Positions 37,723 through 39,405 of a stretch of DNA of 64,000 bases are shown in pieces. The number at the start of each line of letters is the position of its first letter. Within the stretch, counting starts at the first letter, position 1. Below the pieces are notes generated by a model. It made no database searches. It was not told where the DNA came from and was given only the letters and a program-made list of their open reading frames with translations. The stretch is from contig WEDG01004886.1 in the NCBI GenBank assembly GCA_017591395.1, positions 1 through 64,000 on the forward strand, written 5' to 3'. The translations under genes were made by a program, and so were the position numbers. This DNA is from Schistocephalus solidus (taxonomy: Eukaryota; Platyhelminthes; Cestoda; Diphyllobothriidea; Diphyllobothriidae).

Positions 37723-37820
37723 GACAACGAGCTCATGGCGCAGTGGGTAGAGCGTTGGACTTCTGCCCAACAAGGTCGCGAGTTCGAGGCTCGGGCGCCG
37801 CAGCGCCTGGGTTTGGGTAT

Positions 37821-37865
37821 GGCTGGCTGATGACGGCTTATAAGCCAGAAATGGTCATTCCAGTC
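37821..37865 (+). ncRNA. Candidate hammerhead, SINE unit 1
   Basis: GGCTGG, CTGATGA (37827-37833), stem II GGCT/AGCC around TATA, GAAA (37848-37851), stem III ATGGTCAT, T (cleavage), CCAGTC. Stem I pairs all six bases, one of them G-U. The base next to the core in stem II is a C/A mismatch, as in most copies. Confidence 0.65.
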
Positions 37866-38124
37866 TCCCTTGTCTTTGTTGGTTATGTTATTACGCCTAT
37901 AAACTAAGCTGCCTTACGGCTGCTGGCGGGGCTTGAGAGTTAGCCGCAAGGCACAACGGGACGAGTGTGTCCAGTAACCGATCGGTGAGCGCCCCACACT
38001 ATCATCATATTCCCGATCACAACCGACAAAACAACGAGCACGTGGCTCAATGGTAGAGCGTTCGACTCAAATACCAAATGTCGCGGGTTCGAATCCCAGG
38101 TGTGCCCCACTTGGGATTGGGTAT

Positions 38125-38169
38125 GACTGGCTGATGACGGCTAATAAGCCAGAAATGACTATTCCGGTC
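38125..38169 (+). ncRNA. Candidate hammerhead, SINE unit 2
   Basis: GACTGG/CCGGTC stem I (one G-U), CTGATGA 38131-38137, GAAA 38152-38155. Stem III ATGACTAT is no longer palindromic, so dimer formation would be weakened. Confidence 0.58.
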
Positions 38170-38427
38170 TCTCTTGTCTATGCTGGTTCCATTCCATCAT
38201 ATGCTACACGTTGCTATGCACCCGCCTGCGAGGGCTCTAGTCTGAGCTCCAGGGCACAACGGAACATGCATGTTCCTTTAGCAGATCGGTGAGCCCCACA
38301 CTATCATCATGTTCCCGATCACAACCGACAAAACAACGAACCCCCTGGCTCAATGTTAGAGCGTTCGAATCAAATACCAAACGTCGCGGGTTCGAATCCC
38401 AGGTGTGCCACACTTGGGATTGGCAAT

Positions 38428-38472
38428 GGCTGGCTGATGACGGCTTATAAGCCAGAAATGGTCATTCCAGTC
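38428..38472 (+). ncRNA. Candidate hammerhead, SINE unit 3
   Basis: GGCTGG/CCAGTC stem I, CTGATGA 38434-38440, GAAA 38455-38458, stem III ATGGTCAT. Identical in plan to unit 1, fitting the mosaic origin of this unit. Confidence 0.65.
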
Positions 38473-38731
38473 TCCCTTGTCTTTGTTGGTTATGTTATTC
38501 AGCCTATAAACTAAGCTGCCTTACGGCTGCTGGCGGGGCTTGAGAGTTAGCCGCAAGGCACAACGGGACGAGTGAGTCCAGTAACCGATCGGTGAGCGCC
38601 ACACACTATCATCATATTCCCGATCACAACTGACAAAACAATGAGCACGTGGCTCAATGGTAGAGCGTTCGACTCAAATACCAAACGTCGCGGGTTCGAA
38701 TCCCAGGTTTGCCCCACTTGGGATTGGGTAT

Positions 38732-38776
38732 GACTGGCTGATGACGGCTTATAAGCCAGAAATGGCTATTCCGGTC
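38732..38776 (+). ncRNA. Candidate hammerhead, SINE unit 4
   Basis: GACTGG/CCGGTC stem I, CTGATGA 38738-38744, GAAA 38759-38762, stem III ATGGCTAT with one non-pairing position. Confidence 0.6.
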
Positions 38777-39034
38777 TCCCTTGTCTTTGTTTGTTCCATT
38801 CCATCATATGCTACACGTCGCTAAGTACCCGCCTGCGAGGGCTCTACTCTGAGCTCCAGGGCACAACAGAACATACATGTTCCTTTAGCAGATCGGTGAG
38901 CCCCACACTATCATCATGTTCCCGATCACAACCGACAAAACAACGAACCCCCTGGCTCAATAATATAGCGTTCGACTCAAATACCAAACGTCGCGGGTTC
39001 GAATCCCAGGTGTGTCACACTTGGGATTGGGTAT

Positions 39035-39079
39035 GACTGGCTGATGACGGCTAATAAGCCAGAAATGGCCATTCCGGTC
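39035..39079 (+). ncRNA. Candidate hammerhead, SINE unit 5
   Basis: GACTGG/CCGGTC stem I, CTGATGA 39041-39047, stem II GGCT/AGCC around AATA, GAAA 39062-39065, perfect palindrome ATGGCCAT in stem III. This is the most complete copy in the array. Confidence 0.68.
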
Positions 39080-39340
39080 TCCCTTGTCTTTGTCGGTTCC
39101 ACATTATCATTTTATGCTACACGTCGCTATGAGACCACCTGCGAGGGCTCTAGTCTGAGTTCCAGGGCACAACGAAACATACATGTTCCTTAAGCAGATT
39201 GGCGAGCCCCACACTCTCATCATGTTCCCGATCACAACCGACAAATTAAACGAACCCGTGGCTCAATGGTAGATCGTTCGACTCAAATACCAAAAATCGC
39301 GGGTTCGAATCGCATGTGTGTCACACTTGGGATTGGGTAT

Positions 39341-39385
39341 ATCTGGCTGATGACGGCTAATAAGCCAGAAATGGCCATTCCAGTC
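39341..39385 (+). ncRNA. Candidate hammerhead, SINE unit 6
   Basis: CTGATGA 39347-39353, GAAA 39368-39371, perfect ATGGCCAT stem III. Stem I ATCTGG/CCAGTC pairs only its inner four bases. Confidence 0.6.
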
Positions 39386-39405
39386 TCCCTTGTCTTTGTC
39401 TGTTC

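Follow-up and report, generated by a model that had tools for sequence, protein, structure and literature searches.

How does a short, tRNA-headed element come to lie in tandem arrays with a hammerhead-like motif in each unit, does that motif cut RNA, and which enzymes carry the element from place to place? These questions are raised by six tandem units at 37724-39408 of the window, that is, of the whole 64,000-nucleotide stretch of Schistocephalus solidus DNA analysed here. The reading we prefer is a non-autonomous tandem retroelement, a SINE with a tRNA head, a length of about 304 bp and a variant type I hammerhead, moved by Penelope-like elements (PLEs); as a whole, this reading is given an even chance of being right.

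Each of the six units contains one 45-nt block, and TRF reports a 303-bp tandem repeat of 5.3 copies at 37808-39408. The blocks start at 37821, 38125, 38428, 38732, 39035 and 39341, at spacings of 304, 303, 304, 303 and 306. A preliminary description had proposed six units of about 303 bp with such a block, which agrees with TRF and with blocks 303-306 bp apart, but the units are not uniform, as units 1 and 3 deviate. Each unit runs from a tRNA-like head through the hammerhead-like block to a tail, except that unit 6 stops past its block. In the BLAST map, unit 1 (37724..38035, +) is of type u1, with a different tRNA head and body; units 2 (38036..38338, +), 4 (38643..38945, +) and 5 (38946..39251, +) are of type u2; unit 3 (38339..38642, +) joins a u2 head region to a u1-like body; and unit 6 (39252..39408, +) breaks off at unit position 157, where (AT)n follows. 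Units 1 and 2 were found again as a 607-bp dimer (identity 96% and 95%). The array is bordered by (AT)n on the left (37595..37614) and on the right (39407..39422), and a 94-nt inverted u1 tail (37620..37713, -) forms a left arm; because of this inverted tail, the window array is head-to-head with both outer ends at (AT)n. The window also includes a second array of the same family (40956..41726, +) between (AT)n tracts at 40894-40931 and 41728-41775, a single copy (17031..17292, -) with its 3' end at unit position 272 against (AT)n, and a short array (55882..56280, -) with its 3' end at unit position 167 against (AT)n.

The block occupies 37821..37865, 38125..38169, 38428..38472, 38732..38776, 39035..39079 and 39341..39385 in units 1 to 6, always on the forward strand, and the cut is expected after 37859, 38163, 38466, 38770 and 39073 in units 1 to 5. 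Three stems surround the core, with the structure open at stem I, a short palindromic stem III (3/4 pairs in unit 2) and U as the cut-site base. CTGATGA and GAAA are found in 6/6 units, the general core being CUGANGA, and stem I is fully paired in 5/6. In this sense, the earlier statement that every unit has all parts of the motif stands for CTGATGA and GAAA, but not for stem I of unit 6, where ATCTGG/CCAGTC makes only 4/6 pairs. The further statement that stem I pairing is kept across all window copies falls with unit 6 and with the copy at 17180(-), whose GACTGG/TCAGTC is a form that had not been listed. Outside the array the core is altered in three of five copies (CTGTAGA at 41250, CTCATGA at 41552 and TTGATGA at 56227(-)). 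A 28-nt core pattern with up to three mismatches has 11 matches in the window against 0 expected from 100 shuffles, and CTGATGA..GAAA with one mismatch permitted has 13 against 1.7 expected.

The base of stem II (10.1/11.1) is a C.A mismatch in all six units. The same mismatch is dominant genomically, 1,301 copies having another first base (mostly T among the matches listed). In type I hammerheads the stem II base is normally a G-C pair, and some viroid hammerheads tolerate additional bases beside the core; on that view this position may hold a G-C pair with one additional base on either side. Catalysis is nonetheless doubtful because the stem II base is mismatched. A comparison with Rfam hammerhead models, suggested as a check in the preliminary description, gave no model at its gathering score, whether in the window or at any scanned locus, an outcome that the description had set as counting against a hammerhead; a whole-window Rfam search returned nothing above cut-off. 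The best score was that of Hammerhead_HH9, 17.2 bits (E 0.029) against a gathering cut-off of 52, obtained from an 81-base stretch where it was the sole Rfam match up to E 10, in the same register as the block; this sub-threshold match belongs to unit 5. RNAfold favours a different fold by 5.5 kcal/mol. An alternative hairpin, CUGGCU/AGCCAG, keeps 2 double changes against 0.96 in shuffles and loses one of its six pairs in the related family C described below; it is possible, but not preferred.

Constraint was assessed in the tRNA-headed unit family of the window array, hereafter family A. Among 83 distinct family A sequences, N7 is changed in 12 and U4 in none, and N7 varies more than the other T sites (26/664; P 0.0004); several of the N7 variants, in old copies, read CTGACGA and may go back to a single ancestral state. 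GAAA is changed in 7/332 cells and the remaining core in 25/498. The commonest stem I change, G42 to A (15/114 sequences), lies within a CpG. The pairing-preserving stem I variants to which the preliminary description had appealed were rejected as proof of pairing, being one-sided wobble and CpG changes. Across the family A stems, 9 double changes preserve pairing where column shuffles give about 2.6, but 9/16 double-changed cells pair against 91/272 at other position pairs (P 0.059), in rows restricted to 83 distinct sequences with at most one gap and at most 15 differences, with family C, duplicates and gappier rows dropped. Covariation inside family A is weak. A hand-picked alignment (the consensus plus 23/52 sequences, chosen by eye and including compensating-change rows) looks better, at 18/500 shuffles, but this result and the models R1 and R2 are biased towards the structure by that choice of rows. 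An argument for constraint from shared variants was also rejected, the deficit in the hammerhead block (16/41 sites against 53/97 in the spacer) being non-significant (P 0.14); the corresponding value for the hairpin block was P 0.037.

In family C, found at L047:8100-9994, L010:891-1363, L005:2184-2671 and L039:322-665, the tandem unit measures about 365 bp and includes a hammerhead-like block; no tRNA head was seen in it. The copies read have A.C at the stem II base and one extra core base, and a short stretch of the family gave no hammerhead against Rfam. Two blocks are common to families A and C and follow each other in identical order, the hammerhead block and a hairpin block (GATCGG..CCGATC); the intervening stretch is dissimilar. 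Between the two families, eight substitutions fall within pairs, of which 13 are retained, three through double changes (P 0.00015 under random substitutions and 0.039 under transitions only, 8/8 being transitions), in a test that omitted the mismatched base and the uppermost stem II pair (the 14th). A structured model built from A recovers four C matches at three loci (15.9 bits, E 0.18), whereas the sequence-only model from A has no C match; a longer sequence profile including the flanks reaches C at three loci (E 0.003-0.005). Scanning 361 kb for the whole architecture, with a design made after seeing A and C that permits their mismatch and extra base and is blind to family B (stem I of 4 pairs), gave 199 matches (30 distinct), all in families A and C, against 0 in five sets from first-order Markov resampling. 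The block is hammerhead-like and would be a variant of type I. Evidence from sequence for a hammerhead fold is moderate, a hammerhead origin is supported by the core pattern together with the compensated relative family C, and working self-cleavage would stand at about even odds.

The same PLE-moved SINE could also bear a hammerhead that no longer cuts, a relic of a PLE or retrozyme module whose hammerhead and RT-start region are retained for PLE protein binding, with uncut read-through RNA as the template. Anolis PLE hammerhead mutants insert like wild type and their main substrate is uncut RNA (PMC11167929), which is what such a relic would lead one to expect, as are a dominant form with C.A at the stem II base and the weak covariation of family A; the core that still holds a hammerhead pattern, with the N7, U4 and GAAA counts given above, and the 13 pairs kept through eight substitutions in family C fit it poorly. 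We regard this relic as possible, if rather unlikely.

Returning to the preferred reading, the head of the unit bears on how the element could be transcribed. The tRNA-like heads of unit 2 (38038..38106, +) and unit 4 (38643..38711, +) score 27.9 and 27.0 bits against the Rfam tRNA model, whose cut-off is 29; one related copy in L048 scores 33 bits, and ARAGORN reports no tRNA genes in the window. Units 2-5 each have a perfect B box. The Pol III head of the preliminary description holds up, with the correction that these two window heads score under the tRNA cut-off. The unit consensus is without TTTT, which is present in 24/170 units, and mean unit GC is 0.517 (170 units).

The element is abundant. 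The 28-nt core pattern, with one free position, has 22,122 matches in the 603.7-Mb genome and its reversed control none, and units cover 5,336/190,000 bases in 19 contig-start samples. At G000:C10:72149-72464, three core matches are spaced only 143-145 bp, possibly representing short-unit arrays. In two related tapeworm genomes, Penelope elements are reported at about 10% and SINEs at about 1% (PMC8166898). The window itself has decayed PLE-like fragments at 3681-5628 (-), comprising an RT fragment (RVT_1, E 0.0066) and two GIY-YIG-like fragments (E 0.0049 and 0.15), with scores all under Pfam cut-offs; at E 0.001 a Pfam search of the two endonuclease fragments came back empty. The GIY-YIG-like fragment at 5254-5628(-) has 42 relatives at E up to 0.001, all from Schistocephalus, Dibothriocephalus, Spirometra or Sparganum, which are diphyllobothriidean. 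A PDB search with the RT fragment was set aside, giving five weak lectin matches and zero RT, and phage and viral collections gave no match.

Three features that the preliminary description had missed are the most informative on element movement: the flanking (AT)n, a pair of fixed 3' ends and the head-to-head layout. Among 33 family A 3' ends at (AT)n, 13 fall at unit position 157-167, 19 at 270-277 and 1 at 253, and eight 5' ends at (AT)n are scattered over 45-264; only ends adjoining (AT)n were counted, three overlapping loci were skipped, and the loci had mostly been selected as best matches to the window unit. Positions 157 and 167 are probably a single junction, ..GGTTCCAT, because the matches continue into AT letters. 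Family A junctions comprise 11 head-to-head and 4 tail-to-tail, and from the head-to-head arrays we infer extension of both strands. At L039:816-925, two inverted unit tails fold back into a long hairpin, on which several Rfam miRNA models score below cut-off.

Similar ends are seen in other elements. Family B (36854-37597, -, and 105-966, +) is a 354-bp tandem repeat between (AT)n tracts, with head-to-head arrays in L010 and L011. Its hammerhead is more canonical, Rfam Hammerhead_1 scoring 26.3 and 15.9 bits (36903-36977 and 37257-37332) against a cut-off of 34. In families B and C the hammerhead-like motif lies a short way upstream of the 3' end in (AT)n, the termini being ..GCCAT and ..GAT in B and ..CTCTGCAT and ..TTGAAT in C, with a few copies of each at (AT)n. 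A further element, P, which we infer to be a PLE, has a hammerhead-like motif over the ATG of its start region (977-1142, +; 39677-39819, -; 40747-40894, +); a short stretch of it gave no hammerhead against Rfam. The end point of this candidate lies about 101 nt past the ATG that overlaps the motif; its terminus, ..GCGAT, stands against (AT)n in 2/4 copies, and the other two extend past it. The end pattern fits published Penelope-like insertion.

These ends also bear on the proposal that a LINE moves what is otherwise an ordinary tRNA SINE, in which the hammerhead likeness would derive from the SINE body and (AT)n would be merely a favoured target. LINE use is common among SINEs (PMC7245038), and two related genomes are rich in RTE-BovB and CR1 (PMC8166898); such a route is made improbable by the long arrays, tandem and head-to-head, whose outer ends are both 3', by the two fixed 3' ends, and by the like behaviour of the non-tRNA families B and C. 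Of 17 arrays, 12 are more alike internally than the between-array mean (0.955), L024 matches that mean, and the window array, L022, L030 and L048 fall below it; either a circle or an uncut multimer may be the template. The excess in the 12 arrays, together with L031, where one array reaches 32 full units or more, would suit mainly DNA-level satellite growth by unequal exchange or extrachromosomal circles, with (AT)n ends arising via AT-tract recombination, yet we hold this to be very improbable, since near-single copies at separate (AT)n sites with common 3' ends and variable 5' ends are better fitted by reverse transcription.

The mechanism put forward under the preferred reading is that of a LINE-independent SINE, Pol III-driven and hammerhead-bearing, that is moved by a Penelope-type RT and endonuclease, a proposal we consider evenly balanced between right and wrong. 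Pol III would initiate at the tRNA head and transcribe across several units, whose consensus is without TTTT, and the resulting multimeric or circular RNA would be taken up by a PLE RT and GIY-YIG endonuclease. The hammerhead would probably cut multimeric RNA down to single units, perhaps acting only in a dimer or when aided by the PLE protein; this is the weakest step. The PLE enzyme would cleave DNA at (AT)n, where the copies are found, and reverse transcription would start internally, either about 30 or about 144 nt past the expected hammerhead cut, at the two positions that correspond to the fixed 3' ends. Priming from both broken (AT)n ends, with extension of both, would produce the head-to-head arrays observed, and copying of multimers or circles would produce tandem arrays. 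Families A, B and C would then share one PLE-read module, consisting of a hammerhead and an RT start.

The significance of the proposal lies in the helper of such elements. Animal retrozymes have been proposed to be moved by PLEs, but according to a 2020 review their repeats show no motif naming a helper (PMC7761336). Here three families in one genome have fixed internal ends in (AT)n, and A and B also have head-to-head arrays, the pattern reported in vitro for a PLE; with copies in the tens of thousands, this genome makes the retrozyme helper question open to test. If true, a shared PLE-read module in A, B and C would name that helper, and the pattern suggests that SINEs can exploit a retroelement class besides LINEs. 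Among the matches listed from the open-access literature, a scope outside which most subscription papers lie, none described a tapeworm hammerhead SINE or a PLE-moved tRNA SINE.

Among known systems, the MetaSINE superfamily is marked by a 66-bp Meta-domain. Small PLE-associated hammerhead variants (those of Lunse 2017) reportedly cleave as dimers; the tapeworm block resembles them in its short palindromic stem III and differs in its mismatched stem II base. The Sm-alpha elements of schistosomes are annotated as tRNA-Gln-derived SINEs with hammerheads (PMC2770079). The likeness of a tRNA head and hammerhead-like block in tandem to SMalpha, drawn in the preliminary description, is upheld by that annotation, and SMalpha/Sj-alpha also match the tapeworm element as tRNA-derived SINEs with a type I hammerhead and very high copy number in the same phylum (PMC2770079; PMC8490949); the SMalpha hammerhead is proven active, whereas the tapeworm block has C.A at the stem II base. 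Metazoan retrozymes have units of 150-450 bp in tandem, carry type I hammerheads and co-exist with PLEs (PMC7229834), which they are thought to use (PMC7229834; PMC8969392). Circular and linear RNA of unit length is a further mark of retrozymes. The 303-306 bp tandem spacing is retrozyme-like, provided that the variant hammerhead is accepted; on the other hand, the tapeworm unit has a tRNA-type promoter head, whereas retrozymes seem promoterless in the account of PMC7761336, and its GC is 0.52 against under 0.50 in retrozymes. In the Anolis PLE, RT starts at two adjacent internal sites 111-118 nt into the ORF, a hammerhead lies at the ORF start, and AT-rich DNA is cut with both strands extended (PMC11167929). 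The tapeworm element shares with PLEs its tandem copies, AT-rich target, proposed internal RT starts and a hammerhead-like motif upstream of them, but its units are short and noncoding. Overall, we read the element as a tRNA SINE that resembles both SMalpha and retrozymes and owes its movement probably to Penelope-like elements; it combines the SMalpha and retrozyme kinds in a tapeworm, with a hammerhead of variant form and a visible PLE-like insertion pattern.
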